A stretch of 56,651 nt of DNA from an uncultured Pelagibacteraceae bacterium. GTDB taxonomy: Bacteria; Pseudomonadota; Alphaproteobacteria; Pelagibacterales; Pelagibacteraceae. The stretch is from contig CACPFY010000008.1 of NCBI GenBank assembly GCA_902633335.1, positions 1 to 56,651 on the forward strand, given 5' to 3'. The position numbers were made by a program, and so were the translations under genes. Below, piece by piece: positions 20,835 to 37,617 of this stretch; the stretch's first letter is position 1, and each line of letters begins with the position of its first letter. The notes beneath the pieces are model-generated. The model ran no database searches. It was given only the letters and a program-made list of their open reading frames with translations, and was not told the DNA's origin.

Positions 20835-20840
20835 TTGATT

Positions 20841-20869: not shown

Positions 20870-20881
20870 TATGGAAAAATG

Positions 20882-21601
20882 TTATTTTTTTCCACCACCC
20901 TCTAAATAAGCGGCTTGAATATCCTTATTTTTCAATAGGTCTTGACCGGTTCCTTCTAATGTAACATTTCCGTTGACTAAAACATAACCTCTATCCGCTA
21001 ACTCTAAAGCCTTTTTGGCATTTTGTTCTACTAAGAAAATAGTAACTTTTTTCTCTTTATTAATATTTTTTATTGCCACGAAAATTTGGTTAACAAGTTT
21101 TGGAGCTATACCTAAAGAAGGCTCATCTAAAAGAAGCATTTTTGGCTTGGCCATCAAGGCTCTACCTATCGCTAACATTTGTTGCTCACCTCCTGATAAT
21201 GTTCCTCCCCTTTGACTAAGTCTGTCTTTTAAAACTGGAAATAAATCGTAAACATCTTTTACGTCGTTATCAAAGTTTTTTCCTTTATCATTTGACGAAG
21301 CGCCTAATCTCAAATTATCTTCCACTGATAATCTTGAAAATATTCTTCTTCCTTCAGGAACTTGTGAAATGCCGAGATTAACGATGTCATGTGGTGGCAA
21401 ACTTTCAATATTTTTATCATCAAATTTAATTTCACCTGTAGCAGCTTTATTTACTCCACTAATTGTCATTAACAACGTTGATTTACCCGCTCCATTAGAT
21501 CCTATTAGTGAGACGATTTCTCCGCTATTCACCTTAACATTTACTCCTCTTAAGGCCTGTATATTTCCATAAAATGTTTCAACATTAGAAATTGATAACA
21601 T
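20882..21601 (-). CDS. livF: Branched-chain amino acid ABC transporter ATP-binding protein LivF
   Basis: A 239-residue ABC ATPase of the LivF type. Walker A is GSNGAGKSTLL near residue 34, the signature TLSGGEQQMLAIGRAL near 135 and Walker B LLLDEPSLGIAP near 157, with PEGRRIF typical of LivF. It energises amino acid import with LivG in the cytoplasm. The start codon shares base 21601 with the livG stop. It is the first of two LivF homologues in the window, the other being at 31820-32605. Confidence 0.93.
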   Translation of the reverse strand: MLSISNVETFYGNIQALRGVNVKVNSGEIVSLIGSNGAGKSTLLMTISGVNKAATGEIKFDDKNIESLPPHDIVNLGISQVPEGRRIFSRLSVEDNLRLGASSNDKGKNFDNDVKDVYDLFPVLKDRLSQRGGTLSGGEQQMLAIGRALMAKPKMLLLDEPSLGIAPKLVNQIFVAIKNINKEKKVTIFLVEQNAKKALELADRGYVLVNGNVTLEGTGQDLLKNKDIQAAYLEGGGKK

Positions 21602-22395
21602 TATTCCTCCGTACCTAAATAAGCCTCGATAACTTCAGGGCTATTTTTTGTTTCTTTAGCAGATCCTTGGAAAATCTTTTTCCCGTAATTTAAAACTACA
21701 ACATGATCTGATATTTCCATTACAACGCTCATATCGTGCTCTATTAGGAGAATGCCTGTTTTTTTTTCATTTTTTATAAATAAAAGTAATTTGTTTAACT
21801 CAGCGGACTCTTTAGCATTGAGCCCTGCAGCTGGTTCATCTAGACATAACAAATGTGGATTAATGCACATGGCTCTTACAATTTCTAATTTTCTTTGATC
21901 TCCGTAAGGTAAATCACCAGCATCGTCGTCTGCTCTGTGCGTTAAACCAATAATATCTAACCAGTATTTTGAAATTTCTACCGCTTCTTTTTCTTTTTTT
22001 ACAAAAGAAGGTGAGTTGAATAATCCAAGAATAGTAAAACCAGAAGCATCCATTAATTTGTTATGCTGAGCAACCATAAGGTTTTCCAAAACTGACATTT
22101 GTGGGAAAAGCCTTATATTTTGAAAAGTTCTGGCAACTCCAGCTTTTTGTGCCACTTTAAAATCAGAAAATTTTCTTAGGTTTAATCTTTCATTTTCTTT
22201 ATTTAAAAACATTGAGCCAGCAGTAGCCTTATAAAAACCTGTTAAGCAATTAAATACAGTTGTTTTGCCTGCACCATTTGGACCTATTATTGAAGTAATT
22301 TTATCTTTATCAGCAGAAAAAGATAAATTATCAATAGCAACTAGACCTCCAAATTTCATTGTTAAGTTTTCTACATCTAATAATTTTTGACTCAT
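21601..22395 (-). CDS. livG: Branched-chain amino acid ABC transporter ATP-binding protein LivG
   Basis: A 264-residue ABC ATPase of the LivG type: Walker A GPNGAGKTTVFN near residue 38, TFQNIRLFPQMSVLENLMVAQH, a signature in the reduced form AGDLPYGDQRKLEIVRA, Walker B LLCLDEPAAGLN, and the C-terminal EAYLGTEE typical of the subfamily. It pairs with LivF to drive the LivHM permease. It overlaps the livM stop by 4 bases and abuts livF. Confidence 0.93.
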   Translation of the reverse strand: MSQKLLDVENLTMKFGGLVAIDNLSFSADKDKITSIIGPNGAGKTTVFNCLTGFYKATAGSMFLNKENERLNLRKFSDFKVAQKAGVARTFQNIRLFPQMSVLENLMVAQHNKLMDASGFTILGLFNSPSFVKKEKEAVEISKYWLDIIGLTHRADDDAGDLPYGDQRKLEIVRAMCINPHLLCLDEPAAGLNAKESAELNKLLLFIKNEKKTGILLIEHDMSVVMEISDHVVVLNYGKKIFQGSAKETKNSPEVIEAYLGTEE

Positions 22396-23666
22396 TTTGA
22401 TGAACTCTTTTCCAATGTTATTGTTGGTTTTCTTGTTGCTAAAATTCCTCTTGGTCTAAAAATCATGATTAGAACCATGGCGCCACCAAATGCAATCATC
22501 CTATAAGACTCGAAGTCCCTAAAAACTTCAATTAGTCCAATTAAGAAAACAGTAGCTAGTACAACTCCAGTCTGTGAACCCATTCCTCCAAGAACCACTA
22601 TTGCAACTATTATAGCTGACTCAATAAAAGTAAAACTCTCTGGACTTATAAACGCTTGTCTAGTTGCGAAGAATGATCCTGCAAATCCTCCAAACATCGC
22701 TCCAATAGCGAAAGCAGTAAGTTTTGTATTTCTTGGATTAACGCCTAATGATTTACATGCGATTTCATCTTCTCTTAAAGCTTCCCAAGCTCTTCCAATT
22801 GGCAGTCTTCTTATCTTAATTGTAAAAAGATTAGTAATTAAAGCTAAAACCAGAATTAAATAATATAAAAAAATAATTCTTTGCATTGGATCATACTCGA
22901 TGCCAAAAAAAGTATGAAATGTTTGCTCCCCCTCATCTGGAAAACTTTTAAAAGGTAAGCCGAAAAAAGAAGGTCTTGGTATTCCCGTCAGTCCGTCAGG
23001 ACCTTTAGTAAGTTGATACCAATTTAAAAGCAAAATTCTGATCATTTCTCCAAATGCAAGTGTTACGATCGCTAAATAATCACCTCTTAATCTTAAAACT
23101 GGAAAACCTAAAAGAACTCCAAACATTGCTGCAAATATTCCAGCTATTGGTAAACAAATCCAGAATGACCAGCCAAAATGAATTGCAAATAATGCGTATG
23201 AATATGCACCTACTGCATAAAAAGCTACGTATCCTAAATCTAATAGACCTGCTAAACCAATTACAATATTTAAGCCCCACCCAAGCATAATGTAAGTTAA
23301 CATCATGATAGCGATATCCATTAGGTACCTGTCTGTAAAAGGAAGAAAAGGAAAAATTACTGAAAATATAATTGCTGTTAAAGCTATTTGATAACCTTTT
23401 GTATCTAAAAAATTACTAATTGATTTACCAATGCTTGATTGAATTCCAGTTTTTTGATCTCGATTGTAAACGTAAAGATTTGTAAGAAATCTCCCTACAG
23501 CGCAAACTATAACAATAATTAAAACAATAAACCATTTAGGATGAACTTCAAGAACTTCATTTTTTGCAACTGTCCTTAAACCTACAATCGGACCAAAAAG
23601 TGCTAGAGCTATTAAGCCTGTGAATAAACTGTCTTTGATTGACGTCTGAAAAAATTTTTTTTCCAT
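22392..23666 (-). CDS. livM: Branched-chain amino acid ABC transporter permease LivM
   Basis: A 424-residue inner-membrane permease with about ten hydrophobic segments. The LivM core is GWGLNIVIGLAGLLDLGYVAFYAVGAY and LRLRGDYLAIVTLAFGEMIRI, then the EAA-like loop GRAWEALREDEIACKSLGVN. An in-frame TTG at 23681 would start inside livH. The ATG at 23666 follows the livH stop by 1 base with AAGG 6 bases upstream, so I prefer it. It has a longer N-terminal extension (about 90 residues, two extra hydrophobic segments) than the second LivM in this window. Confidence 0.9.
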   Translation of the reverse strand: MEKKFFQTSIKDSLFTGLIALALFGPIVGLRTVAKNEVLEVHPKWFIVLIIVIVCAVGRFLTNLYVYNRDQKTGIQSSIGKSISNFLDTKGYQIALTAIIFSVIFPFLPFTDRYLMDIAIMMLTYIMLGWGLNIVIGLAGLLDLGYVAFYAVGAYSYALFAIHFGWSFWICLPIAGIFAAMFGVLLGFPVLRLRGDYLAIVTLAFGEMIRILLLNWYQLTKGPDGLTGIPRPSFFGLPFKSFPDEGEQTFHTFFGIEYDPMQRIIFLYYLILVLALITNLFTIKIRRLPIGRAWEALREDEIACKSLGVNPRNTKLTAFAIGAMFGGFAGSFFATRQAFISPESFTFIESAIIVAIVVLGGMGSQTGVVLATVFLIGLIEVFRDFESYRMIAFGGAMVLIMIFRPRGILATRKPTITLEKSSSK

Positions 23667-23667
23667 A

Positions 23668-24585
23668 TTAAACCTTTTCAATATCTGGTTTTCCTAAAAA
23701 ACCAGTTGGGAAAAAGATTAATACAACAACTAAAACTGTAAAAGCTGCAATATCTTTATATTCAATTGAAATATATCCTGACCAAAATACTTCAATTAAA
23801 CCTATTAATAATCCACCAAGCATAGCACCAGGAACAGATCCAATTCCTCCTAATACTGCAGCAGTAAATGCCTTGATGCCTGCTAAAAACCCTATGTAGA
23901 AATCTATTACGCCATAATACATGACGAACATCATTCCAGCTACCGATGCTAAGGAAGAACCGATTATAAATGTAATTGAAATTGTTCTATCTACATTAAT
24001 TCCCATTAATGCAGTCATTGTTCTATCTTGTTCACAAGCTCGTTGTGCTCTTCCTAAAGCAGTTTTAGTAATTAGTAAGGTAAAGATTGCCATTAAAACT
24101 ATTGTTACTAACACTATGAATATTTGAAGATAACTCAAAGAAACTGTAAATCCTGTATCTTCCATAAAAGTAAATCCACCTTGAATAACAGGTTGCAACG
24201 TTTTAATTCTAGCTCCTTGTGCAGCTTGAACATAATTTTGCAACACAATCGACATTCCTAAAGCAGAAATAAGTGGAGCAAGTCTAAAAGATTTTCTCAG
24301 TGGTTTATAAGCTAGTTTTTCAACAGTCCAGCCATAACAAGCTGTAAATACCATAGCGATTAGTAAAGTAAGTAACAAAACTATTGGTAGAGCAATACTT
24401 GTAAGTGCAAAAAGAATAAAAGAAATTAAAGCAATAAATGCTCCTACCATAAAGATGTCTCCATGAGCAAAATTTATCATTCCGATTATGCCGTAAACCA
24501 TGGTGTAACCAATTGCTATCAAGCCATAAACCGAGCCTAGCGTTACACCGTTTATTAACTGTTGTAAGAAATACGCTGTATCCAT
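23668..24585 (-). CDS. livH: Branched-chain amino acid ABC transporter permease LivH
   Basis: A 305-residue permease and first gene of the livHMGFK operon. LINGVTLGSVYGLIAIGYTMVYGIIGMINFAHGD is the diagnostic LivH start, followed by KLAYKPLRKS, the EAA-like loop GRAQRACEQDRTMTALMGINVDRT and a C-terminal GGIGSVPGAMLGGLLIG. About eight membrane segments are present. It lies 7 bases downstream of the ProC-like gene on the same strand, so the two may share a promoter located before that gene. Confidence 0.92.
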   Translation of the reverse strand: MDTAYFLQQLINGVTLGSVYGLIAIGYTMVYGIIGMINFAHGDIFMVGAFIALISFILFALTSIALPIVLLLTLLIAMVFTACYGWTVEKLAYKPLRKSFRLAPLISALGMSIVLQNYVQAAQGARIKTLQPVIQGGFTFMEDTGFTVSLSYLQIFIVLVTIVLMAIFTLLITKTALGRAQRACEQDRTMTALMGINVDRTISITFIIGSSLASVAGMMFVMYYGVIDFYIGFLAGIKAFTAAVLGGIGSVPGAMLGGLLIGLIEVFWSGYISIEYKDIAAFTVLVVVLIFFPTGFLGKPDIEKV

Positions 24586-24592: not shown

Positions 24593-25351
24593 TTAAAATT
24601 TTTTAAAGATGCTATTTAAGACTTTTTGTTGGACTTTGTAAAATTTCTTTTTTTTGAGCTCTTTAAGCACGTAAGCATTGGTTCCCCCAGGGGTTTGAGA
24701 TTCTAGCACCAGTTGTTTTAGTGAAATTTTATTTTTGTTCATTGCATCCTCGGATAAAGCTAAAAAAAGTTCTCTAGTATAATTCTCTGCTTTATTTCTT
24801 TTTATTCCTTTAGAGACTAACCAGCTACTAGTCTCATTTAACAAATTATAAAAAGAAGCCATAAAAGACGAAGTTGCCCAAAAACTTTTGGATGTATTTT
24901 CGCTTTTTAATTCTATTACTTTCCCCAAGTATTTAAAAAAATTTTTTAATTTATTATCGTTTGGACAAATTATAATTGGTCCCTTTCTCATTCCTATAAA
25001 AGGCAAAGGAATTACTCTTGAAATATTTTTGTTTTTTGTAATTTTTTTTAATTGATTTATATTTATTGTTGAAATTAAACTTATTATCTTCTTAGATTTA
25101 TTAAATCTTAAACTTTTCAGTATTTTATTTCCTACATTTGGAGTAACAGCCAAGAATATCCAAGAAGAGCTATCTATTACTTGTTGATTGTTATTAGAAA
25201 CAATCACTTTTTTAAATCTTTTACTTAATTTTTTTGATATCAGTTTATTTCGAGGGGAGATGTAAATTTTTTTGATTTTTAGTTTTGATTTAAAAATACC
25301 TTCTATGATTGAAGATGTAATATGACCAGAGCCTAAAAATCCTATATTCAT
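24593..25351 (-). CDS. proC: Pyrroline-5-carboxylate reductase-like protein
   Basis: A 252-residue protein with the ProC fold: NADPH-binding GFLGSGHITSSII at the N-terminus, AVTPNVGNKIL, VIPLPFIGMRKGP (equivalent to the RxMPN region) and the C-terminal ESQTPGGTNAYVLKEL, whose TPGG motif is diagnostic. True ProC makes proline from pyrroline-5-carboxylate. This copy is divergent (RVIPLPFI instead of RVMPNTP) and very lysine-rich, so its substrate could differ. The start codon is separated from that of the divergent AbrB gene by only 5 bases. It lies 7 bases upstream of livH and may be co-transcribed with it. Confidence 0.75.
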   Translation of the reverse strand: MNIGFLGSGHITSSIIEGIFKSKLKIKKIYISPRNKLISKKLSKRFKKVIVSNNNQQVIDSSSWIFLAVTPNVGNKILKSLRFNKSKKIISLISTININQLKKITKNKNISRVIPLPFIGMRKGPIIICPNDNKLKNFFKYLGKVIELKSENTSKSFWATSSFMASFYNLLNETSSWLVSKGIKRNKAENYTRELFLALSEDAMNKNKISLKQLVLESQTPGGTNAYVLKELKKKKFYKVQQKVLNSIFKKF

Positions 25352-26872: not shown

Positions 26873-28372
26873 CTATTTTTTTTTAAAATAACTATTATAT
26901 ATTTGCCAAAAAACAATAAACAAAATAGTTATCATAATACATAACGTTAATGGCCTATCCCAAAGAAACGCCCATGATCCATCACTTATCAGTAATGATC
27001 TCCTCAGGTTTTCTTCCATCAAACCTCCTAATACAAACGCTAATATTAAAGGTGGCATAGGAAATTCGTATAAGCGTAAAATTGTTGCTACAACAGCTAT
27101 TCCTATCATTAAATAAATATCAAAATTGTTAAAAGACATTAAATAAATGCCAGTAACTGAAAAAAATAGAATAAGAGGAATTAAAAAAGCTCTTGGAACT
27201 GCTAAAATTCTAGCTATGTATGGAATAAGAGGTAAGTTTAGAATTAATAAAATTACCATTCCGATATACATTGACATTATTACAGACCAAAAAATTTCAG
27301 GATTGGTTTGATAAAGTCTTGGTCCAGGCTGTATACCAAAACCTAGTAATGCTCCTAGCATAACAGCAGTGGTACCACTGCCAGGAATACCAAGTGTTAA
27401 TAAAGGAACAAAAGAACCAGAGCAAGCTGCGTTATTTGCAGTCTCTGGTGCAGATAAACCGTTGACACTACCTTTTCCAAATTTCTGTTTCTCTTCATCT
27501 TTAACGAAATTTCTTTCCATTCCATAGGCTAAAAAAGAAGCAATAGTCGAACCAGCTCCTGGTAATACACCTACAATGAAGCCGATTATTGAAGATCTAG
27601 GTATTGTTGTAACCATTTTTTTTGTTTCTTCTTTATCAAGTTTTATTGACCCAAGTTTTGATAATGAAATTTGTTTTGCAGCTTGTGTCGGGTCGCTTCC
27701 TTTAAAAATAATTGAAAGAGCCTCACTCATTGCAAATGTAGCCATAACTACAAGAACGAAACTTATACCATCTGCCAAATTCATATTATTAAAAACAAAT
27801 CTTGGTATATCCGATAAGGTATCTTGTCCAACTGAAGCTAACATTAGTCCCAGTACAACCATCATCATTGCTTTTAAAAAATGTCCTTTTGCAGAAAATG
27901 CTGATACTGCGGTTAAACCTAAAATCATTAGACCAAAATAATCTGGTGATCTAAAAGCTAAACTTACTTTTGATAAACTAGGTGCGGCAAATAATAAGAA
28001 AATTGCAGCGATCGTTCCTCCAGCAAAAGAACTATAAGCTGCGATCGCTAAAGCTTTACCAGCTTTTCCTTGTTGAGCCATTGGGTAACCATCAAAAGAT
28101 GTGGCTACAGTTCCTGGAATTCCGGGAGCGTTGATTAATATTGAAGATGTTGAACCACCAAAAACTGCACCGTAATAAACTCCCGCCATCAAAATTAATC
28201 CGGTTGAAGGTTCAAAACCATAAGTGATCGGTATCATTAAAGCTATTGCTGTCATCGGTCCCAATCCCGGAAGCATTCCAATTATAGTTCCAGCAAAACA
28301 CCCTATCATCACCATAATGATATTTTTTATTGATAGCGCGGTATTTAAACCGATAAGAATTCCTTCAATCAT
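26873..28372 (-). CDS. tctA: Tripartite tricarboxylate transporter permease TctA
   Basis: A 499-residue large permease with about eleven to twelve membrane segments. The diagnostic loop GTIIGMLPGLGPMTAIALMIPITYGFEP lies near residue 28, then GVYYGAVFGGSTSSILINAPGIPGT and the second-half counterpart GVLPGAGSTIASFLAYGMERN. Tct systems use an ion gradient to take up di- and tricarboxylates presented by a periplasmic TctC. The start overlaps the tctB stop (4 bases). Third gene of tctCBA; it ends 5 bases from the convergent DoxX gene. Confidence 0.93.
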   Translation of the reverse strand: MIEGILIGLNTALSIKNIIMVMIGCFAGTIIGMLPGLGPMTAIALMIPITYGFEPSTGLILMAGVYYGAVFGGSTSSILINAPGIPGTVATSFDGYPMAQQGKAGKALAIAAYSSFAGGTIAAIFLLFAAPSLSKVSLAFRSPDYFGLMILGLTAVSAFSAKGHFLKAMMMVVLGLMLASVGQDTLSDIPRFVFNNMNLADGISFVLVVMATFAMSEALSIIFKGSDPTQAAKQISLSKLGSIKLDKEETKKMVTTIPRSSIIGFIVGVLPGAGSTIASFLAYGMERNFVKDEEKQKFGKGSVNGLSAPETANNAACSGSFVPLLTLGIPGSGTTAVMLGALLGFGIQPGPRLYQTNPEIFWSVIMSMYIGMVILLILNLPLIPYIARILAVPRAFLIPLILFFSVTGIYLMSFNNFDIYLMIGIAVVATILRLYEFPMPPLILAFVLGGLMEENLRRSLLISDGSWAFLWDRPLTLCIMITILFIVFWQIYNSYFKKK

Positions 28373-28839
28373 CCTATTATTCCTAAATATTTTAAAAGTG
28401 GGTCACGTAGATAAATGTCTAATAGGCCATGTAAAAGAAACATAAAAATAGCCACAAAAGGAAAGGAGAGTGCAAAAACCCAAAACCATCTTTTTTCGCC
28501 AAGTGTTATGTAAGACAGAACCAAAAAAATTGAGGTTGAAAGAAAATAACCTGCCTTCAAAATTGTAACTCCGTAAATGATCATTAAAACGACAAGTGTA
28601 ATTGTCCTTTTATAATCTAAGACTGAAAGATTAACATTTGCAGGTCTTTTCTCAGGTAAAGCAATATAGAGACCTGAAAAGAAAATTCCAGCGTAACCTA
28701 ACAAAATTGGAAAAGTTTTCGCATTAAAAGGAGCGTTTTCATCAAAGGCAAAAACTCTAATTTGATATGCGTGATATAAATAAAATCCTGAAAAAACAAA
28801 GAAGAGCAGTGAAATAATCTTAACTGGACTTATTTGCAC
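28369..28839 (-). CDS. tctB: Tripartite tricarboxylate transporter small permease TctB
   Basis: A 156-residue protein with four hydrophobic segments and the TctB pattern: an early FFVFSGFYLYHAYQIRVF, the conserved AKTFPILLGYAGIFFSGLYIA, and GAYFLSTSIFLVLSYITLGEKRW towards the end. It is the small membrane subunit that pairs with TctA. It lies between tctC and tctA with a short gap and a 4-base overlap. Confidence 0.88.
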   Translation of the reverse strand: MQISPVKIISLLFFVFSGFYLYHAYQIRVFAFDENAPFNAKTFPILLGYAGIFFSGLYIALPEKRPANVNLSVLDYKRTITLVVLMIIYGVTILKAGYFLSTSIFLVLSYITLGEKRWFWVFALSFPFVAIFMFLLHGLLDIYLRDPLLKYLGIIG

Positions 28840-28862: not shown

Positions 28863-29843
28863 TTAAATTACTCCAAGTTTTTTCATTAGAGCTGTCATTT
28901 CTTTAGTTTGTGTTTTTAAAAACTTCACAAACTTTTTGTCTGGGTTATAGATATTAACCCAAGCATTTCTTTTTCTAACAGCTTCCCATTCTGGAGTTTT
29001 TTGAACATCACCTAACATTTTTGCTATTTTCTTTTTATCTGCATTACTCATGTTTGGTGGACCAAAGAATCCTCTCCAGTTTACGAACTGAACATCAAAG
29101 CCTTGTTCTTTAAGCGTTGGTACTTCTGGAGCATCTGCAACTCTACTAGGTGCAGTGATACCAATTATTCTTACTTGGTCTCGTGCTCCCATTACTTCTC
29201 CCAAACCAGTTGAAAGAATTTGAGTTTCTCCTGAAAGTAAACCTGCTAATGCTTTTCCGCCAGCATCGTAAGGTACGTATACAACTTTATTTGGATCGGC
29301 TCCTGCTTCTTGGAAAGCTAAAGCACCAATCAAATGGTCCATGCTTCCTCTTACAGATCCACCAGCCATCTTAACAGATTTTGGATTAGATTTATAAGCA
29401 GCAACTACATCTTTAAAGTTTTTATACGGTGAATTTTTTGCAACAGCGATTGCACCATAGTCACCTATTACTCCAGCTATTGGTACAACATCTTTGTATG
29501 AAAGAACGCCACTACCACTCACGTAACCTTTGTGTCTTGTGATTGATCTTAATACTAAAGGTGTTGATTGAACTAATACTGTACCAGTAGGTTTAGTATT
29601 AATCATGAATGATAAAGCTTTACCTCCACCACCACCTGACATATTTTCAAATGACGCGCTCTTTAAGAAACCAGCTTTTGTAAGCGCTTCTCCAGTTCCT
29701 CTAGCAGTTCCATCCCAACCACCACCAGCTCCACCGCCAATTACAAAGTGTAATTTGTCAATAGCAAAACTAGTTGATGAGATTGAAGTTAAAAGAACGG
29801 TAGCAAATACAAGACTGATAAGTTTTTTAAATTTACTTAACAT
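28863..29843 (-). CDS. tctC: Tripartite tricarboxylate transporter substrate-binding protein TctC
   Basis: A 326-residue periplasmic binding protein of the Bug/TctC family. The signal peptide ends SSTSFA near residue 27. The mature protein has FVIGGGAGGGWDGTARGTGEAL, ASFENMSGGGGGKAL, YKSNPKSVKMAGGS, VYVPYDAGGKALAGLLSGE and the C-terminal WRGFFGPPNMS. The Gly-rich opening differs from the usual P-loop of the family but keeps its position. A good ribosome site (GGGGGAAAC) precedes the ATG. The ligand is probably a carboxylate, and the neighbouring CsiD/GlaH-type hydroxylase makes glutarate-like diacids worth testing (inference). Confidence 0.9.
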   Translation of the reverse strand: MLSKFKKLISLVFATVLLTSISSTSFAIDKLHFVIGGGAGGGWDGTARGTGEALTKAGFLKSASFENMSGGGGGKALSFMINTKPTGTVLVQSTPLVLRSITRHKGYVSGSGVLSYKDVVPIAGVIGDYGAIAVAKNSPYKNFKDVVAAYKSNPKSVKMAGGSVRGSMDHLIGALAFQEAGADPNKVVYVPYDAGGKALAGLLSGETQILSTGLGEVMGARDQVRIIGITAPSRVADAPEVPTLKEQGFDVQFVNWRGFFGPPNMSNADKKKIAKMLGDVQKTPEWEAVRKRNAWVNIYNPDKKFVKFLKTQTKEMTALMKKLGVI

Positions 29844-29909: not shown

Positions 29910-30806
29910 TTAATGGAAAAAAGTTCCTCTAATTCTTAATAGTTCTCTAGATAACCCAGAATGCTCTTTGAAAGCTTTTCTCCCATGGAGCCAGAAATAA
30001 TTATTTGAAAAAATTGTAGAACCTACTGGTAAAGGAAAAACTATTTTGTTTTTGCTCTCTTCCAATGCATCAGATAATTTTTGTAAGAACAAACCTTGTT
30101 GCATATTTTTGGGCTCAGGAAATTGATCAATATAAGAAATAATAGGTTTACCTTTCTCATCATTAGAAAATACTGGGTGTTCAACTTTATAATCTACGTT
30201 TTTACTCTTGGGTGAACTCCAAATAAAATTTTGTCTACCTATTGGATCTTTGCTTAAGTCTTCTAAATATTCCCAGTCATCTAAGTGCAGTATCACACTT
30301 TCTCCTCCTGAAACATTTTGCTCCTCCATCTTAGTCATTATTAACCAGTCTGTTTTTTCTTTTACGTAGGTTCCATCTGTATGAAGATCTAAATTGTTAT
30401 ACGCTTTTCGTAAATACGAGTCGCGTTGATCTACATGTTTCACCTCAAATCTTGCGTAGTATTTTCCTGACATTGAATCAAAATTAGGATTGCCTACAAG
30501 ATAGGCTAAAGATGTTGATAGTTTAACTAAGAATTCTTTATCAAATTTATTATTTTTCATCTCAGGTTCAATAATTACTGTTCCTGAATTTCTATCACTA
30601 AGAATTTTATTAAGTTGTTTGCTTAATTCATTTTTAAATAATTCATCTAAACTTTTAGCAATGGTAAACCTTGTAAAAGGTTTATACTCTAATGATGTAA
30701 TGGAGTGTTTTTTAAATGGAAATACCAATCTATCTAGATCTGCTTCGGGTATTTTTATAACCTTTACTCTCTTAGAATTCTTATGATCTTCAATTTTTAA
30801 ACTCAT
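29910..30806 (-). CDS. glaH: CsiD/GlaH-family Fe(II)/2-oxoglutarate dioxygenase (probable glutarate 2-hydroxylase)
   Basis: A 298-residue protein that follows E. coli CsiD/GlaH along its whole length. TSLEYKPFTRFTIAKSLDEL, GNPNFDSMSGKYYARF, DSYLRKAYNNLDLHTDGTYV, SGGESVILHLDDWEYL, YIDQFPEPKNM, NNYFWLHGRKAF and SRELLRIRG all have obvious counterparts. The iron ligands are His142 and Asp144 in HTDGTYV and His274 in WLHGR; C-terminal arginines near 287-293 would hold 2-oxoglutarate. GlaH hydroxylates glutarate to L-2-hydroxyglutarate, giving succinate and CO2. The usual partner L-2-hydroxyglutarate oxidase is not in the window. The start overlaps azlD (ATGA), so it is coupled to a Liv-type importer and AzlCD. 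A relative acting on another diacid is possible. Confidence 0.85.
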   Translation of the reverse strand: MSLKIEDHKNSKRVKVIKIPEADLDRLVFPFKKHSITSLEYKPFTRFTIAKSLDELFKNELSKQLNKILSDRNSGTVIIEPEMKNNKFDKEFLVKLSTSLAYLVGNPNFDSMSGKYYARFEVKHVDQRDSYLRKAYNNLDLHTDGTYVKEKTDWLIMTKMEEQNVSGGESVILHLDDWEYLEDLSKDPIGRQNFIWSSPKSKNVDYKVEHPVFSNDEKGKPIISYIDQFPEPKNMQQGLFLQKLSDALEESKNKIVFPLPVGSTIFSNNYFWLHGRKAFKEHSGLSRELLRIRGTFFH

Positions 30807-31129
30807 ATACTTGTCAAAACAGATAAAAGTATAGCAGAAAATATTGTTGGTATAACCAAATTTTTCTTCATTATAATGAAAATAAATATACAGCTAATAA
30901 GGACTATCAAACGTATTATGATGTCGGCATCAGCTAATACTCCAGCAGGAAAAATTATAATTCTACCAAGCAAAGCTGCTAGAGTTGAGTAGGCAACTAG
31001 ATTAAACCAATCAAAAAGTTTTGAACTAGAATCAACTCTCTCTGAAGTTATTGCTCCTAAAAAACGTGATATAAACGTTGCAACAGATGTTGCAATTATT
31101 GCTAATATTATAATTTTATTTGGATCCAT
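30803..31129 (-). CDS. azlD: AzlD-family branched-chain amino acid transport protein
   Basis: A 108-residue membrane protein with about four short hydrophobic segments, the AzlD pattern: an N-terminal helix ending FISRFLGAI, then FDWFNLVAYSTLAALLGRIIIFP and a hydrophobic C-terminus. AzlD is the small subunit of AzlCD exporters for branched-chain amino acids and analogues. It overlaps azlC by 14 bases and the glaH-like gene by 4. Confidence 0.85.
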   Translation of the reverse strand: MDPNKIIILAIIATSVATFISRFLGAITSERVDSSSKLFDWFNLVAYSTLAALLGRIIIFPAGVLADADIIIRLIVLISCIFIFIIMKKNLVIPTIFSAILLSVLTSI

Positions 31130-31823
31130 CTCTCACTCCAAATAAATATGATATTGAGCCCGCTGTTAAACCGGCAAAAAGAATAGCCCACTCACTTGAA
31201 AATAAATAAAATACAGGTCCTAGTGTAGTTCCTAATATAATAGCTAAAGAAATTTTTAAGTTATTCATTGCTCCAATCATCATGCAAAAGAAATAAACAG
31301 GATTTACGATTGCTAACCCTATAATAATATCTTTGTTGAGATAGTCTGCTAAAGTAAAACCTATTAAAGTTGTTACAATTGCAGTGGTCCATGTTCCAAA
31401 GCCTATACCCATCCAAAAGTCAATTCTGTATTTCTGATCAATTTTTTTATAAGTGTCTTTAGCTATGAGCCAAGATGAGATTGCAAGAAAATGACATGAC
31501 AAATAATATTTCCATCTAGGTTGAGACTTATGTTTAAGTAAAGGGAAAAGAGATACGGTCATTGGGTATAGTCTGAAATTTACTAACCAAACAGCTATGA
31601 AAATATTAATTATTGATGCGCCAATTAATAAAGACTCGGCCATAACAAGTTGACCTGGTAGAGCATAAGTAAAAAAACTTGATGCAGCGCTTTGATGTAT
31701 GTTTAAACCTGCATCCTTTAGTAAAGCTCCAAGTGCAATAAAGCATGCAGCTAATGGTATCGCTGGACTTCTTACTCCGATTAATGATTTAAGTCCTTTA
31801 AAAAAAATTTTTGAATTTATCAT
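31116..31823 (-). CDS. azlC: AzlC-family branched-chain amino acid exporter, large subunit
   Basis: A 235-residue membrane protein of the AzlC family with about seven segments. It shows GLKSLIGVRSPAIPLAACFIALGALLKDAGL, QSAASSFFTYALPGQLVMAESLL and FRLYPMTVSLFPLL, close to the family's canonical order. AzlCD-type pairs export leucine, valine and related compounds. Placement directly behind a Liv-type importer (4-base overlap) is unusual, since importer and exporter would be made from one message. It may limit intracellular accumulation or exchange one amino acid for another (inference). Confidence 0.86.
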   Translation of the reverse strand: MINSKIFFKGLKSLIGVRSPAIPLAACFIALGALLKDAGLNIHQSAASSFFTYALPGQLVMAESLLIGASIINIFIAVWLVNFRLYPMTVSLFPLLKHKSQPRWKYYLSCHFLAISSWLIAKDTYKKIDQKYRIDFWMGIGFGTWTTAIVTTLIGFTLADYLNKDIIIGLAIVNPVYFFCMMIGAMNNLKISLAIILGTTLGPVFYLFSSEWAILFAGLTAGSISYLFGVRDGSK

Positions 31824-32605
31824 CCTCCGAGGAATAATCTGCCTACGTCAGGATTTTTTAAAAGATCATTGCCTTTGCCAGCAATCGCTGTTTGACCGGA
31901 AACTAAAACGTATCCTATGTCAGCAAATTCTAAACCTTTTTTAGCATTTTGTTCAACTAAAATAATTGTTTTCTTTTCTGTTTTTTGTAGATCCTCTAAA
32001 ATTTCAAACACCATACTTATATACTTAGGTTCTAAACCAATTGAAGGTTCATCAACAAGTAGCACCGAAGGTTTCATGACTAGAGCTCTAGAGATTTCTA
32101 ATAGTCTTCTTTCTCCGCCTGATAAAACTTTTGCAGGTTGATTTCTTCTATTTCTTAGTCTGTCATATTTTTGAAAAATTCTTTCAGCTTCTTCGTAAGC
32201 TTCGTCTTGTTTATCTTTAATATATCCTCCCATTAAAAGGTTTTCCTCCACTGTCATGTCAGGGAAAACAGAATTATCCTGCAAAATATACGCAATACCA
32301 ACTTTACTTAATTTTTCTGCAGGAGTAAGCTTAGTAATTTCATTGCCTTCTAGTTCAATCTTTCCATCAAAGATATTTGTGAAACCATATATAGAGTGAA
32401 GAATTGTAGATTTTCCCGCACCGTTTGGTCCAATTAAGCATAACGATTGAGCTTTACTCACTGTTAAATCAAATTTATGAAGAATTTCCATCTTTCCGTA
32501 ACCTGCGTTAAGCCCTCTTATTGTTAAATGAACATCGTTAGGAGAAAGTTTATTTAATTCTTCTAACCCTGGAGCCTTTCCTAAAACATCATATTGATTA
32601 GCCAT
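31820..32605 (-). CDS. LivF-type ABC transporter ATP-binding protein (second system)
   Basis: A 261-residue ABC ATPase of the LivF class: Walker A GPNGAGKSTILH near residue 55, signature VLSGGERRLLEISRAL, Walker B VLLVDEPSIGLEP. It has a roughly 25-residue N-terminal extension (KAPGLEELNKLSPNDVH) compared with the first LivF copy, and the PEGRR-type motif is replaced by YILQDNSVFP. It overlaps azlC by 4 bases and shares base 32605 with the LivG-type gene stop. It probably drives uptake of an amino acid or amide-like compound. Confidence 0.9.
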   Translation of the reverse strand: MANQYDVLGKAPGLEELNKLSPNDVHLTIRGLNAGYGKMEILHKFDLTVSKAQSLCLIGPNGAGKSTILHSIYGFTNIFDGKIELEGNEITKLTPAEKLSKVGIAYILQDNSVFPDMTVEENLLMGGYIKDKQDEAYEEAERIFQKYDRLRNRRNQPAKVLSGGERRLLEISRALVMKPSVLLVDEPSIGLEPKYISMVFEILEDLQKTEKKTIILVEQNAKKGLEFADIGYVLVSGQTAIAGKGNDLLKNPDVGRLFLGG

Positions 32606-33339
32606 TACTGTGCTCCTAAATAAGCATCAACAACTCGCTTATCATTTTTAATTTGATCTGGTGAACCTTCTGCTAACATTTTTCCATGTGCTAGACAGAA
32701 TATTTTTTGAGCTAAGCTCATTATGACTCTCATATTATGTTCAATAACTAATAACGTAATTCCATAATCTTTGTTTATTTTAATTAACCTATCAATAATT
32801 CCATTAATTAACGTTGGATTTATTCCTGCCGTTGGTTCATCTAATAAAAGCATTTTCGGCTCATTCATTAATGCCATAGCTAATTCTAATAATTTTTGCT
32901 GTCCAAATGATAAATCTCCTGCTCTTAAATTTCTTTTCTGATATAGGCCAACAAAGTTAAGAAGGTTTTCCGCTTTTTCAGTCAACTCTAAAGGCACTTT
33001 TGCAAATATAAATCCGGAGTCACTAGCTTTATGGCTAATAAGCATATTTTCTACGCAATTAAGTTTCGAATAAATTCGTGTTTGTTGAAAAGTTCTTAAT
33101 AAGCCTAGTTTTGCTACTGCTGGTACAGGCATTTCAGAAACCTCGGTATTATCAAAGATAATAGATCCTTGATCTATTGGGTGAGTTCCTACAATCGAAT
33201 TAAATAAAGTTGTTTTACCAGAACCGTTTGGTCCTATTAAACCAACTATTGATCCCTGCTCTACTGAAACAGAAATGTCAACGTTGGCTTGGACACCGCC
33301 AAAAGATTTGCTTACATTTTTTACTTCTAAAATACTCAT
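32605..33339 (-). CDS. LivG-type ABC transporter ATP-binding protein (second system)
   Basis: A 244-residue ABC ATPase of the LivG class: Walker A GPNGSGKTTLFN near residue 37, TFQQTRIYSKLNCVENMLIS, a signature AGDLSFGQQKLLELAMAL, Walker B LLLDEPTAGINP, and C-terminal DAYLGAQ. It partners the LivF-type gene that follows. The start overlaps the LivM-type stop (ATGA). Confidence 0.9.
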   Translation of the reverse strand: MSILEVKNVSKSFGGVQANVDISVSVEQGSIVGLIGPNGSGKTTLFNSIVGTHPIDQGSIIFDNTEVSEMPVPAVAKLGLLRTFQQTRIYSKLNCVENMLISHKASDSGFIFAKVPLELTEKAENLLNFVGLYQKRNLRAGDLSFGQQKLLELAMALMNEPKMLLLDEPTAGINPTLINGIIDRLIKINKDYGITLLVIEHNMRVIMSLAQKIFCLAHGKMLAEGSPDQIKNDKRVVDAYLGAQ

Positions 33340-34400
33340 TTTAATTCCACCTGCGCTTTACGATCTTTTTCATCAATTACTTCACCAAATCTTTCAGGAT
33401 ATTTTTCTCTTAACCAACCCATTAGTCCCTCAGGGAAATAAATTACAATTACTACAATTAAAACTCCTAGAGCAACGTATTGCCAACCTAAGATTAAAGT
33501 CCAGAAACCCTCTTTTAAAAAATGGAATAAGGTTGCACCAATAACCGGTCCCCATAAAGTTCCTTTACCTCCTAGAATTGCCATTAAGACCATGAACACT
33601 CCCATTTCTCTTCCATCAAAAGCAACATCTGTTGAGTCTATGTAACCGATTAGTCCACCCATTATTCCTCCAGCAAGACCAGCAAAAAAAGCGGACACCA
33701 TCCATCCTACAATTTTATATTTCATTGTTTGAATACCCATCGCTTCAGCCTTATCTTCATTGTCTCTTATTGCATTTAAAATTAATTTGAATCTAGATCC
33801 ATAAATCCATTTGATAAAAACAAATGTACCAATTAATAAGACAAAACTTAAAAAATAGAAAAAATCTCCTCTAGCTCCAGGATCAACTATATCTTTTGGG
33901 AACGGCGGTGTAGTAAAGCCCTGGCCTGCTCCAATGATTTCAATCCCTCCAGCAATTTCACCTGCGGCAATACCTAAGCCTAAAGTACAAATAGCAAAAT
34001 AATGGCCTCTTAATCCTAAAATTGCGTAACCAATAGCGCCTGCAATAATAGTCGGAACTAACGCAGCAACTAATAAACCAACGCCCATACCTTGAAAATA
34101 TTGAGATGTAGTGTGTACAAATGTTTTCTCACCACCGCTTTCCGTCCATTCAGCTAATGGAAAAAACATTCCAACTTGAACCGATGCAGTTAGATACATT
34201 CCAAGACCATAAAAAAGAATGTTTCCAAAAGTATTATAACCCATTTCTCCACCTTGCAGATTCCATGTCATAGCTAATACTATTAAAACACAAAGTATTG
34301 TAAGCTGAACTTTAAAACCTGGGAATAAAAATGGAGCAGCTAGTCCTAAGATTATTAAGCCGGAGTATAAAATTAAATCTTTTTGTTTCACATTGTCCAT
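33336..34400 (-). CDS. LivM-type ABC transporter permease (second system)
   Basis: A 354-residue permease with about ten membrane segments. TWNLQGGEMGYNTFGNILFYGLGMYLTA replaces the canonical LivM core, then YAILGLRGHYFAICTLGLGIAAGEIAGG and the ATPase-contact loop LILNAIRDNEDKAEAMGIQTMKYK. It is shorter at the N-terminus than the livM at 22392-23666. It directly follows the LivH-type gene and overlaps the LivG-type gene. Confidence 0.9.
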   Translation of the reverse strand: MDNVKQKDLILYSGLIILGLAAPFLFPGFKVQLTILCVLIVLAMTWNLQGGEMGYNTFGNILFYGLGMYLTASVQVGMFFPLAEWTESGGEKTFVHTTSQYFQGMGVGLLVAALVPTIIAGAIGYAILGLRGHYFAICTLGLGIAAGEIAGGIEIIGAGQGFTTPPFPKDIVDPGARGDFFYFLSFVLLIGTFVFIKWIYGSRFKLILNAIRDNEDKAEAMGIQTMKYKIVGWMVSAFFAGLAGGIMGGLIGYIDSTDVAFDGREMGVFMVLMAILGGKGTLWGPVIGATLFHFLKEGFWTLILGWQYVALGVLIVVIVIYFPEGLMGWLREKYPERFGEVIDEKDRKAQVELK

Positions 34401-35294
34401 TTATTTCAAATACTCCCTTTTCTTTGAAAGTTTAAATCTTCTATAAACTAATATGAAAACTAGCAGCATAAACACTGCTCCAATTCTAAATTCTGTTCCT
34501 AAAATATAATCTGCAAATTCCTCAAAAAGTCCTAAACCCATTCCAGAAATTGCTACCGCAGGTAAATTTCCAAGACCTGCAACAATTACTATCATAAAAG
34601 ATCTAACCGTATAAGGAAGGCCTACGTAAGGGTGCAGGGTAAGTGTAATTGCAATTAAAGCACCAGCAATTCCACATAATGCTGCGTTTATACCAAAAGT
34701 TGCGGCATAAACTTTTTCTGTATCAACACCTAAAATTTTTGCAGCTCTAGCATTTTGTGCTGTGGCTCTTATAGCTCGTCCAAGTCTAGATTTTTTCATA
34801 TATATTACTAAAGCGATTGCATACAAAATACTTACTACTGCAGAGAAAATTTTTGAGTTAGGTAATGTTACTGAATTATCAAAAAGCATTGTTGTTCCGT
34901 ACTCTGATTGAGCAACAACAACATCTGCGCCAAAAATAAAATTCATTAATTGTTGAAATATAATAGCGATACCAAAGGTTGCTAAAATTGAGATAAATAA
35001 ATCGCGATCTACGACTTTATTAATAACTAATTTATATAGTGCCCATCCAACAAAAAACATTATAATTGGTGAAACAATAACTCCCCACGCTGGGTGAATT
35101 CCAGCAAGATACATTGTATAAGCAATATATCCTCCAAGAATTACTAGGTCTCCTTGTGCAATATTTATTATATTCATTACCCCCCATTGAAGAGCCATAC
35201 CATAGGCAATTAAAGCAAATAAAATACCTAGAAGAATTCCGTCCAAAGAAGCCTGGACCATAAGGATTGGAGCTTTAAAAATAAGAAAGTCCAT
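34401..35294 (-). CDS. LivH-type ABC transporter permease (second system)
   Basis: A 297-residue permease: ASLDGILLGILFALIAYGMALQWGVMNIINIAQGD is a LivH-class opening with IAQGD in place of FAHGD. Then come LVINKVVDRDLFISILATFGIAIIFQQL and the loop GRAIRATAQNARAAKILGVDTEKV. The IAQGD form is common in urea/amide and other non-classical Liv systems, so the ligand may not be a branched-chain amino acid. The gene starts after an intra-operon hairpin that follows the binding-protein gene. Confidence 0.9.
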   Translation of the reverse strand: MDFLIFKAPILMVQASLDGILLGILFALIAYGMALQWGVMNIINIAQGDLVILGGYIAYTMYLAGIHPAWGVIVSPIIMFFVGWALYKLVINKVVDRDLFISILATFGIAIIFQQLMNFIFGADVVVAQSEYGTTMLFDNSVTLPNSKIFSAVVSILYAIALVIYMKKSRLGRAIRATAQNARAAKILGVDTEKVYAATFGINAALCGIAGALIAITLTLHPYVGLPYTVRSFMIVIVAGLGNLPAVAISGMGLGLFEEFADYILGTEFRIGAVFMLLVFILVYRRFKLSKKREYLK

Positions 35295-35311
35295 AAAAAC
35301 CTAAAACTTAT

Positions 35312-35346
35312 AAAAGAAATGCCCCCTAAATACTAGGGGGCATTTC
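35312..35346 (-). terminator. Hairpin terminator/attenuator between binding-protein and permease genes
   Basis: Minus strand AAATGCCCCC, 9-base loop, GGGGGCATTT, then TTTCTTTTAT: a strong stem with a moderate T tract. It lies between the second binding-protein gene and its LivH-type permease gene. Partial termination here would make more binding protein than permease. Confidence 0.85.
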
Positions 35347-35361
35347 AAATCTAATTAGATA

Positions 35362-36603
35362 TTAGCTTCTTTCAGACCACTTAGGGATTGGGTGGTAGAA
35401 TTTGTCTGAAGCCCATTTTGTTGGAGCAACAACTTTATTCTCACACGTATCACCTTTACATCTTACTTGGAATAAAATCATAGGCTTAGCAGTGTTTTGT
35501 CCGCCAGGTCCAAATTTAATATTTCCATAGAAAGTTTGCATTTCAGTAGTTTTAAGAGCGTCTCTTACTTTATCTCCATCAAAAGAATTTGCTCTTTCGA
35601 ACGCATCTTTGAATACTAATAAAGCAGCAGAAGATTCAGCTGATTGGTATGGTGGAGCATAACCAAATTCTTTTTTAAAGTCTTTGTCATACTTCTTACC
35701 AGTTCCAAAAAACTTATCTTTATAGCTTAAGTTTTTGTGCCACTGTGATGCACATAACGCGTACTCTGATTTCTTTCCGTGTTGTTTAGAAAGTTTTGCA
35801 GCGTCGCAGTGTGTCATCGCTAACATAGGGACATCTACTTTCATTTCAGCTATTTGTCTGATTGCAGTCAATGCACCTTTTGTGTGACCTGATACGACAA
35901 GTACATCTGGCTTAGTAGCTTTTACTTTAGCTAGTGTAGCTGCCATATCATTAAGTTCTTTTGGTAATTTATCATCGATAATAATCTCTGATCCAGTTCT
36001 CTTTGCAGCATCTAAGATACCTAATCTCACGTCTTGTGAGAATGCATCCTGTTCAAATGCCTGAGCAATTCTTACTGGCTTACCACCGTTTTTCTCTACC
36101 GCTAAATCGATAGCTACTTCAAGGTATTGGTTAGCCGGTGATAACACAGCAAACAAATATTTATATCCTTTTGTAAATAAAGATCTAGATGCACCATTCG
36201 CTTCAACCATAGGAATTTTATATTTCTCGGTTACTGGTGCGATGGCTTTTGTTAAACCTGAACTGTAAGGTCCAAGCATATACTTAACGCCATCTTGGTT
36301 AATTAGTCTTTCAGCTAATTGTGCGGCTCTCTTTGGATTTGACTCATCATCGTAATAAATGATTTCAAATTTATATTTCTTCCCTTGAACTTCAACTCCA
36401 CCCATTTTGTTGATTCTGTCAACGGCTAAGTTGTAACCGTTTTGAGTGTGAACTCCATTTGAAGAATATTTTCCAGTTAGAGAAATTGCAGCACCTAATA
36501 CTATGTACTCACCATCAACTTTTGCAAAAGAAGATGACATGCTTGATAGCATTAATGTGATAGCTGAAATAAATGTAATAAATAGTTTTGTTAATTTATT
36601 CAT
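35362..36603 (-). CDS. Liv-type ABC transporter substrate-binding protein (second system)
   Basis: A 413-residue periplasmic binding protein of the type I (Leu/amide) family. The signal peptide ends SSSFA near residue 27. The mature part has YIVLGAAISLTGKYSSNGVHTQNGYNLAVDRIN, YYDDESNPKRAAQLAERLI, YMLGPYSSGLTKAIAPVTEKY and VRDALKTTEMQTFYGNIKFG. A four-Cys C-terminal region (VRCKGDTCENK) is not usual for LivK. It shares little with the livK at 19695, so the ligand is probably different. The gene has a clear ribosome site (GAGAGGAA) and its own promoter, and is followed by a hairpin. Confidence 0.9.
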   Translation of the reverse strand: MNKLTKLFITFISAITLMLSSMSSSFAKVDGEYIVLGAAISLTGKYSSNGVHTQNGYNLAVDRINKMGGVEVQGKKYKFEIIYYDDESNPKRAAQLAERLINQDGVKYMLGPYSSGLTKAIAPVTEKYKIPMVEANGASRSLFTKGYKYLFAVLSPANQYLEVAIDLAVEKNGGKPVRIAQAFEQDAFSQDVRLGILDAAKRTGSEIIIDDKLPKELNDMAATLAKVKATKPDVLVVSGHTKGALTAIRQIAEMKVDVPMLAMTHCDAAKLSKQHGKKSEYALCASQWHKNLSYKDKFFGTGKKYDKDFKKEFGYAPPYQSAESSAALLVFKDAFERANSFDGDKVRDALKTTEMQTFYGNIKFGPGGQNTAKPMILFQVRCKGDTCENKVVAPTKWASDKFYHPIPKWSERS

Positions 36604-36680: not shown

Positions 36681-37295
36681 TTAATAGTTTTGAGAAGCCG
36701 CGACATAAACTGCGATAATTATTAATACACACGCAGAGATTGTATTTAAAACTTTAGGATTATCTTTAAGCCAAATTGAAACTTTATTAGCTGCAAAAGC
36801 ATAAATCATTAAAGTAGTAAAATCTAAAATGACATAAGTAATTATCAAAATTAAAAACTGAGCGAAATAGTTAGATGAAAAGTCTATAAAAGAAGTAAAT
36901 ATTGTTCCAAAAAAAATTATTGATTTTGGACTAAGTCCAGCAACTAGAAAACCATCTCTGTAAAAAGAAAATATAGATCTTAAGTTTTTATTTCCGCTTT
37001 CAACGATCCTAATCCTAGATGTGTAAGTATCATAGGCTAAATAAATTAAATAAAGAATACCCGCCCATTTCAACATTTGTAATATATTAGGGTTATCACT
37101 TAAAAATGTACCAATAAAAAATACAACAAGTATTCCCTGACAAAAGTTTGCTGATATATCACCTATCGCAGTCCAAATTGACTTATTAATTCCATAATTC
37201 AAAGTATGAGAGACTATGACAACACGAGGTGGCCCTGGAGTAATAAACAAAAATAAAATTATTTGTAAAAAAATCAAAAAATCTGTGGGAAACAT
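36681..37295 (-). CDS. LysE-family translocator (second copy)
   Basis: A 204-residue membrane protein with about six segments: LIFLQIILFLFITPGPPRVVIVSHTLNYGINKSIWT is a LysE/RhtB N-terminus. The middle has WAGILYLIYLAYDTY and GFLVAGLSPKSIIFFGTIFTSFI. In-frame sequence upstream would add 30 residues, but those overlap the divergent DUF2805 gene, and the ATG at 37295 gives the normal family start. It probably exports an amino acid or analogue. It lies 77 bases downstream of the second binding-protein gene's start, on the same strand. Confidence 0.83.
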   Translation of the reverse strand: MFPTDFLIFLQIILFLFITPGPPRVVIVSHTLNYGINKSIWTAIGDISANFCQGILVVFFIGTFLSDNPNILQMLKWAGILYLIYLAYDTYTSRIRIVESGNKNLRSIFSFYRDGFLVAGLSPKSIIFFGTIFTSFIDFSSNYFAQFLILIITYVILDFTTLMIYAFAANKVSIWLKDNPKVLNTISACVLIIIAVYVAASQNY

Positions 37296-37320
37296 TATTT
37301 TTATGACTATATATGAATAT

Positions 37321-37617
37321 ATGAAGAAGAAAAGTTTTATTCCCCAAACCAAAGTTAAAAATCCTGAACCTAAAAAAAAAGGCACTGATTGGGTTATTTG
37401 GGCTGCTTGGGCAGACAGAATTACTTTTGAAGAAATAAAGGAGAAAACTGGAAATAGTGAGTCAGATGTAATTAAAATAATGAGAAAAAACTTAAAACCT
37501 TCTGCATTTAGACTTTGGAGAAAAAGAGTTCACAACACTAGTATTAAACATAGAAAAAAATTTAAGTTTGAAAGAAAAAAAATCAGAGAAAAAATAAGGA
37601 TAAGTGATATAAGTTAA
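37321..37617 (+). CDS. DUF2805 / TIGR03643 family protein
   Basis: A 98-residue basic protein. Its core DWVIWAAWADRITFEEIKEKTGNSESDVIKIMRKNLKPSAFRLWRKRVHNTSIKHRKKF matches the small conserved DUF2805 family, which resembles a helix-turn-helix and is therefore suspected to bind nucleic acid. The function is unknown. An in-frame ATG at 37303 would give six more residues and is an alternative start. Longer reading frames reach into the divergent LysE gene and are unlikely. It precedes the glutaredoxin gene by 2 bases. Confidence 0.82.
   Translation: MKKKSFIPQTKVKNPEPKKKGTDWVIWAAWADRITFEEIKEKTGNSESDVIKIMRKNLKPSAFRLWRKRVHNTSIKHRKKFKFERKKIREKIRISDIS

Follow-up and report, generated by a model that had tools for sequence, protein, structure and literature searches.

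Background

Few cells in the sea are as common as SAR11 bacteria, and the carbon cycle of the ocean is shaped by what they take up. We describe here an operon from an uncultured SAR11 bacterium of the family Pelagibacteraceae, in which the gene for a glutarate 2-hydroxylase of the CsiD/GlaH family follows the genes for a Liv-like ATP-binding cassette (ABC) importer and an AzlCD-type exporter. The operon lies on contig CACPFY010000008.1 of assembly GCA_902633335.1 (81% complete), whose 56,651 nucleotides are referred to throughout as the window.

The closest described arrangement is the glaH(csiD)-lhgD-gabD-gabT-gabP-glaR operon of E. coli (NC_000913). In the passages of PMC6265302 that concern the active site of the E. 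coli enzyme, His160, Asp162 and His292 hold the iron, Arg309 binds the co-substrate and Arg311 and Gly163 bind glutarate. Glutarate is taken up in E. coli by KgtP and expelled by YnfM, both of which are proton-coupled according to the relevant passages of PMC12622518. For SAR11 itself, the legend to a polyamine scheme in PMC8437039 names a glutarate 2-hydroxylase and an L-2-hydroxyglutarate dehydrogenase, and the accompanying section has cadaverine likely converted to succinate via the lysine degradation pathway.

The arrangement of the SAR11 locus is real and conserved; its parts are known, and their combination is in part new. A limited literature search found no publication on this operon. 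Our preferred reading, to which we give a little less than an even chance, is that it is a dicarboxylate-use operon through which a small carboxylate, most plausibly glutarate, would be imported and then hydroxylated to L-2-hydroxyglutarate.

Results

Organisation of the locus

A preliminary description, made from the sequence alone, had proposed eight genes on one strand; open reading frame coordinates and family scans reproduce their positions, strand and families throughout.

29910..30806, minus strand: CsiD/GlaH glutarate 2-hydroxylase, 298 aa (NF002814, 427.2 bits; PF08943, 446.3 bits)
30803..31129, minus strand: AzlD, small AzlCD-type exporter subunit, 108 aa (PF05437, 41.8 bits, cut-off 23.7)
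31116..31823, minus strand: AzlC, large AzlCD-type exporter subunit, 235 aa (PF03591, 85.5 bits, cut-off 32.1)
31820..32605, minus strand: LivF-like ATPase, 261 aa (PF00005; below the cut-off of the NCBIfam models listed, the best 25 of 190)
32605..33339, minus strand: LivG-like ATPase, 244 aa (PF00005 and PF12399)
33336..34400, minus strand: LivM-like permease, 354 aa (PF02653; LivM model 49 bits, cut-off 366)
34401..35294, minus strand: LivH-like permease, 297 aa (PF02653; LivH model 106 bits, cut-off 379)
35362..36603, minus strand: LivJ-like periplasmic binding protein, 413 aa (PF13458, 184 bits)

AzlC and AzlD both score above their Pfam cut-offs and their genes are adjacent, which places the pair among the AzlCD-type exporters. 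As had been reported, the genes abut or overlap from LivH onwards: the spacing is 0 bp at LivH/LivM, -4 at LivM/LivG, -1 at LivG/LivF, -4 at LivF/AzlC, -14 at AzlC/AzlD and -4 at AzlD/CsiD.

The CsiD/GlaH enzyme

The identity of the dioxygenase as a true CsiD/GlaH protein is firm, and its turnover of glutarate is predicted from the same sequence comparisons. It passes the cut-off of the GlaH equivalog NF002814 (333 bits) by 94 bits. Its identity to E. coli GlaH is 48% across 261 residues, and among solved chains it matches those of CsiD/glutarate 2-hydroxylase with E about 1e-82. The proposed iron ligands His142, Asp144 and His274 are intact and align with His160, Asp162 and His292 of the E. 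coli enzyme; R291 takes the place of the 2-oxoglutarate ligand, and G145 and R293 those of the glutarate ligands. All six positions (E. coli H160, D162, H292, R309, R311 and G163) carry the same letters in 68/68 SAR11 CsiD rows. Between the two substrate arginines, where E. coli has Q310, 66 of these rows have Ile and two have Gln; the two are the proteins of a second SAR11 genus, g12, whose genomes have an L-2-hydroxyglutarate oxidase (LhgO). In a midpoint-rooted tree of 21 rows, with long branches flagged by the program, the 13 SAR11 sequences form one group (92/93) within CsiD, beside the group that holds the E. coli enzyme, and join it before the sequence from genome G596 does (83/83), so that the enzyme lies inside the CsiD clade, as the preliminary description had supposed.

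Within the genus of the window, g1, 63 of the 91 genomes carry a CsiD above 150 bits; in the neighbouring family f2, 0/53 genomes have one above cut-off. A class-wide draw gave CsiD at E 1e-30 in 5/385 genomes, namely the source genome, three of the same family and G194 with a distant pair, and a draw across the phylum gave it in 8/398. The G194 pair (G194:C4, loci L049 and L050) consists of two equally scoring CsiD-like genes, one towards each end of a 559 kb contig, which probably reflects the overlapping ends of a circular replicon. The CsiD of G071, a genome listed under g1 with 7% contamination, groups in the tree with that of G440, from a third genus, g13, and its contig (G071:C32, L025) may be foreign.

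The importer and its binding protein

The two permeases encoded with CsiD fall far below the Liv cut-offs, as listed above. The window holds a second Liv set at 19695-24585, whose LivM exceeds its cut-off (505 against 366 bits) and whose LivH falls just under it (347 against 379). This operon, about 5 kb downstream, is the more typical of the two; it comprises a binding protein, LivF, LivG, LivM and LivH and is adjoined by a pyrroline-5-carboxylate reductase gene (24593-25351).

The two binding proteins can be compared directly through the leucine-isoleucine-valine-binding protein (LIVBP), at residues which we take to be its ligand contacts. That of the second set shares 42% identity with E. 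coli LivJ and retains S79, A100, T102, Y150, Y202 and both cysteines; of the nine LIVBP positions only three are changed (Y18 to F, E226 to D and F276 to Y). The CsiD-linked LivJ keeps S79 and departs from LIVBP at all nine: Y18, C53, C78, A100, T102, Y150, Y202, E226 and F276. Serine occupies both cysteine places, and the last six are taken by N136, A138, F188, H240, T264 (beside H265, in an alignment that may be off by one near 264) and Q320. Among 21 aligned relatives A138, F188, H240, H265 and Q320 are invariant and position 136 is N or E, and at the places of C53, T102, Y150, Y202 and F276 the residue of the CsiD-linked protein is common to all. An AlphaFold model of the protein (pLDDT 88) finds its best Foldseek match in SAR11_0655 with L-pyroglutamate (PDB 8wch; E 1.4e-30, 24% identity). 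SAR11_1361 is listed in a row of a table in PMC5069961. LivJ occurs at E 1e-30 in 69 of the 91 g1 genomes; none of the f2 genomes has it.

Two ligands were considered and rejected: branched-chain amino acids, on the family scores and the replaced pocket residues, and urea, since the scores lie far under the urea models. Judged by its residues, the binding protein bears little resemblance to a receptor for branched-chain or other alpha-amino acids, and the importer may carry a carboxylate; we infer, with good reason, that it could be a dicarboxylate importer.

A natural replacement of the importer bears on this. Genome G024 (87% complete) has no Liv genes at the locus between RbsK/RhtB and AzlC-AzlD-CsiD; a TRAP transporter, DctP-DctQ-DctM, stands there instead, with DctM ending 9 bp before AzlC and with CsiD truncated at the contig border. 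The solved proteins that this DctP matches best are a TRAP dicarboxylate-transporter DctP (314 bits) and a C4-dicarboxylate-binding DctP (310 bits), and among 150 relatives a protein of this kind (E 1e-40) occurs only in G024 and, outside the order, in G144 (51% identity). The same stretch (L220:1620-8287) holds a second, divergent set of TRAP type, which includes an NMT1-like binding protein. The swap of Liv for DctPQM is what an upstream dicarboxylate importer would predict, though as a single case it is no proof of a shared substrate: it is seen in 1/63 CsiD-bearing g1 genomes, among which the contigs of G055 and G088 end before the Liv genes.

The preliminary description had offered glutarate, or an amino acid such as lysine or 5-aminovalerate, as the substrate. 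Because of the lost amino acid pocket and the TRAP replacement, glutarate would be the better fit and lysine or 5-aminovalerate the poorer.

Conservation of the gene order

Conservation of the order across SAR11, proposed earlier as a check, was followed in the best 80 of 498 relatives from Pelagibacteraceae and Pelagibacterales. Of these loci, 64 extend for 7 kb or more past LivJ on the downstream side; CsiD stands behind AzlD in 62 of them, so that the arrangement is no product of chance, and is lacking in two. An RhtB exporter gene lies upstream of LivJ in 78/80, and in two of the 62 CsiD-bearing loci RhtB does not belong to the run as counted. The order LivJ-H-M-G-F-AzlC-AzlD-CsiD recurs in 20/20 further chosen CsiD-bearing stretches, a set that shares some genomes with the 80 loci and is not independent of them; an allantoin-type set separates AzlD from CsiD in three of these stretches and two other genes do so in two. 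The order is found beyond g1 as well, in g12 (G241 and G518) and in g13 (G440), with AzlC and AzlD 26-57% identical to those of the window. G350, also of g13, has neither LivJ nor CsiD.

The junctions vary. CsiD had been described as welded into the operon, which is apt for the 4-bp AzlD/CsiD overlap of the window and does not hold as a general feature, that overlap being present in only 17 of the 62 loci; 12 have more than 300 bp at this junction, and of the other 33 a spacing of 75, 83 or 84 bp is seen in 22. At LivH/LivM, 57/76 loci are spaced by 5 bp or less and 18/76 by more than 300 bp. The LivH/LivM junction is a recurrent cargo slot inside the operon: its inserts (loci L055-L134) are several, unrelated and, by eye, secreted proteins, and three that were checked have no Pfam match. 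Between AzlD and CsiD, loci L028, L036 and L040 (genomes G060, G062 and G014) hold an NCS1-type permease, so called from PF02133 in the matching locus L091, and three genes resembling those of allantoin breakdown, named by eye. The AzlD-CsiD inserts were considered as missing pathway steps and rejected, being allantoin-type, outer-membrane or secreted-looking proteins (several without a Pfam match and named by eye) and not LhgO or GabD.

Presence of the two ends of the operon was also scored over the 91 g1 genomes: 57 have both LivJ and CsiD, 6 CsiD only, 12 LivJ only and 16 neither (Fisher p 3e-6), a result that we do not take as proof because neighbouring genes vanish together in incomplete genomes. 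Of the six with CsiD only, three (G001, G010 and G075) show Liv genes up to the contig border, G055 and G088 end earlier and G024 has the TRAP genes; of the 12 with LivJ only, eight reach the contig border before CsiD, three (G061, G043 and G083) lack it and G019 is rearranged after AzlC.

The ease with which this region takes up genes raises the alternative that it is a transporter hot spot of a streamlined genome, where importer, exporter and CsiD lie together without a joint function. The gaps with inserted genes at both junctions, and the coming and going of allantoin-type genes, TRAP genes and the downstream TctCBA genes, are what it would lead one to expect; yet genomes from three genera of the family retain the core order, and AzlC, AzlD and CsiD stay together in G024 despite the replaced importer. 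We consider this explanation very improbable.

Partner enzymes of the pathway

The preliminary description had found no LhgO in the window and had proposed genome-wide searches for lhgO, gabD and gabT. Its observation on the window is upheld: the two matches to the LhgO model listed there (66 and 53 bits, cut-off 299) were examined as candidates and rejected, being a sarcosine/dimethylglycine dehydrogenase-like protein and SoxB. The wider searches covered the g1 genomes and other relatives for LhgO and 11 genomes for the other two enzymes, which in the canonical pathway would make glutarate from 5-aminovalerate. LhgO is above cut-off in 0/150 relatives, including 0/91 of g1; the best g1 score is 157 bits, in G052, the other g1 genomes listed lie at or below about 67 bits, and the source genome reaches 66. 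GABA aminotransferase (GabT) is above cut-off in 0/11 genomes, and the source genome, at its 81% completeness, has no GabT-like match at E 0.001. Succinate-semialdehyde dehydrogenase (SSADH, GabD) is likewise above cut-off in 0/11; SSADH-like enzymes below it occur in 11/11, that of the source genome scoring 482.6 bits against 646.

Outside g1, many f2 genomes have an LhgO-related protein near 200 bits and no CsiD above cut-off. The g12 genomes G241 and G518, both with CsiD, have LhgO above cut-off (313 and 312 bits). In g13, LhgO is not above cut-off in G440 or G350 and has no match at E 1e-25 in any of 181 genomes; CsiD, looked for in G440 and G350 only, is present in the former and absent from the latter.

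Since no LhgO reaches the cut-off in g1, either another enzyme would act on L-2-hydroxyglutarate or the compound would be released. The absence can also be explained otherwise, if SAR11 CsiD has changed its substrate and hydroxylates another imported small acid to a product that is not L-2-hydroxyglutarate. The replacement of Q310 by Ile points the same way, as the only two rows with Gln come from g12, the genus with LhgO; against this, every reported contact with glutarate and 2-oxoglutarate is kept and the GlaH model is passed by a wide margin, and a change of substrate seems to us improbable.

Neighbouring genes

The operon had been described as running from LivJ to CsiD. That order stands; CsiD is not its end, for the single-strand run extends upstream to RhtB and downstream through TctCBA, giving RhtB-LivJ-LivH-LivM-LivG-LivF-AzlC-AzlD-CsiD followed by TctC, TctB and TctA.

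36681..37385, minus strand: RhtB/LysE-family exporter, 77 bp upstream of LivJ (PF01810, 82.7 bits)
28863..29843, minus strand: TctC-like binding protein, tripartite tricarboxylate transporter class, 66 bp downstream of CsiD (PF03401, 65.9 bits)
28369..28839, minus strand: TctB-like small membrane subunit, named by its position between TctC and TctA; same order in relatives
26873..28372, minus strand: TctA-like large membrane subunit, assigned by eye and from its position; same order in relatives

TctCBA follows CsiD in 18/20 of the chosen stretches, and the best solved matches of TctC are tripartite-transporter and terephthalate-binding proteins. In G860 (L151), from another class, TctC and TctA matches lie one gene upstream of a CsiD that is followed by LhgO- and GabD-type genes (by eye), so that Tct genes occur near CsiD in two distant groups. 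Farther along the window, at 43367-55617, a dimethylglycine/sarcosine dehydrogenase-like gene, an electron-transfer flavoprotein (ETF) subunit gene, SoxA and SoxB point to a putative breakdown of methylated glycines.

Discussion

Age of the link between importer and enzyme

LivJ relatives at E 1e-110 or better occur in 28 genomes outside the SAR11 family (class draw, 367 genomes). Around 21 such non-SAR11 loci, 17 of which reach LivF, two being cut by the contig end and two without a further recognised Liv gene, we sought a ligand from the neighbouring genes and found no metabolic gene that recurs beside them; the group shared most widely, respiratory-complex-type membrane subunits (by eye), occurs in 5/21. 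The importer is probably older than its link to AzlCD-CsiD, because its close relatives outside SAR11 show none of these genes in the 21 loci inspected, and we take AzlCD-CsiD to have been joined to it in an ancestor of SAR11. Protein distances over 44 loci with all 12 genes are in line with such a block, agreeing best for AzlC-AzlD (0.81) and AzlD-CsiD (0.78) and dropping at LivF/AzlC (0.33) and CsiD/TctC (0.44).

Several observations weigh against a joint function in dicarboxylate use. The 28 genomes do not include any of the five in which the class draw found CsiD, and AzlC, AzlD and CsiD stand beside LivJ in 0/21 of the non-SAR11 loci inspected, where a diverged AzlD could escape detection; the importer's ligand, then, need not be the substrate of CsiD. 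In at least three genomes, G061, G043 and G083, CsiD is missing with its flanks present and Liv and AzlCD kept. The borders of the block are not clean (AzlC-TctC 0.65, LivJ-CsiD 0.75), and shared ancestry and recombination tracts make neighbours agree anyway. The locus accepts many unrelated genes, and the one TRAP case may be chance; TctCBA next door is a possible second importer of carboxylates, to judge by its family; and the known role of AzlCD proteins is the export of amino acids.

A different explanation is that CsiD serves the internal breakdown of lysine or cadaverine via 5-aminovalerate and glutarate, as proposed for other SAR11, and is merely parked behind an older Liv operon, sharing its transcription, while Liv carries something else. 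The polyamine scheme in the legend of PMC8437039 already gives glutarate 2-hydroxylase such a place, and the Liv relatives without CsiD, the three genomes missing CsiD alone, the loose AzlD/CsiD junction and the SSADH-type dehydrogenases in all 11 genomes, albeit below cut-off, fit it too. It is harder to reconcile with the failure to find GABA aminotransferase above cut-off in any of the 11 genomes or, at E 0.001, in the incomplete source genome, and with AzlCD-CsiD staying behind an importer after the importer swap in G024; with LhgO not found, this route would also halt at L-2-hydroxyglutarate. We regard it as possible, if on balance doubtful.

A possible route

If the locus is indeed a dicarboxylate-use operon, the Liv-like importer would take up a small carboxylate other than an alpha-amino acid, glutarate or a near analogue being the most plausible, and CsiD would hydroxylate glutarate with 2-oxoglutarate and oxygen, giving L-2-hydroxyglutarate, succinate and CO2. 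In g12, LhgO could return L-2-hydroxyglutarate to 2-oxoglutarate; in g1, another oxidoreductase might act on it or it might leave the cell, for which AzlCD is a candidate exporter. The ligand of the importer, the cargo of AzlCD and the fate of L-2-hydroxyglutarate are what we infer here. The fuller proposal, of an ATP-driven, Liv-class glutarate importer in one operon with CsiD and AzlCD and without LhgO, whose L-2-hydroxyglutarate is released via AzlCD or is the substrate of an undescribed oxidase, is a more specific claim and an unlikely one.

The uptake-and-hydroxylation route of the preliminary description is partly supported: the sequences show the enzyme with its catalytic residues, the conserved gene order, no LhgO above cut-off in g1, a binding pocket that has lost most of the LIVBP residues and the one TRAP replacement, and the route need not be an exclusive one. 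For a binding protein widespread in SAR11, to which the literature searched assigns no ligand, the work proposes a class of ligand that can be tested, namely small carboxylates in place of branched-chain amino acids. A ligand for this LivJ may already have been published, as in a 2024 Nature study of SAR11 binding proteins. If the fuller proposal is true, some of the most abundant bacteria of the ocean would turn over dissolved glutarate and 2-hydroxyglutarate.

Comparison with known systems

The likeness to the E. coli operon lies in GlaH, with nearly half of its residues identical and the same catalytic and substrate residues; the difference lies in its surroundings, since the SAR11 window has no lhgD, gabD, gabT, gabP or glaR beside CsiD, which is preceded by a Liv-like ABC importer and AzlCD. 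The scheme of PMC8437039 had already placed a glutarate 2-hydroxylase in SAR11 metabolism, and its relevant sections do not discuss the operon, the importer, AzlCD or the missing LhgO. KgtP and YnfM of E. coli have the same supposed transport task and are proton-coupled, unlike the ABC importer or AzlCD here. The CsiD-linked LivJ has the fold of the HAAT/LIV-type binding proteins, such as E. coli LivJ and SAR11_0655, and is set apart by the replacement of the nine LIVBP positions compared. The TRAP DctPQM system of G024 (L220), finally, belongs to an unrelated transporter class and yet occupies the place of Liv before AzlCD-CsiD.

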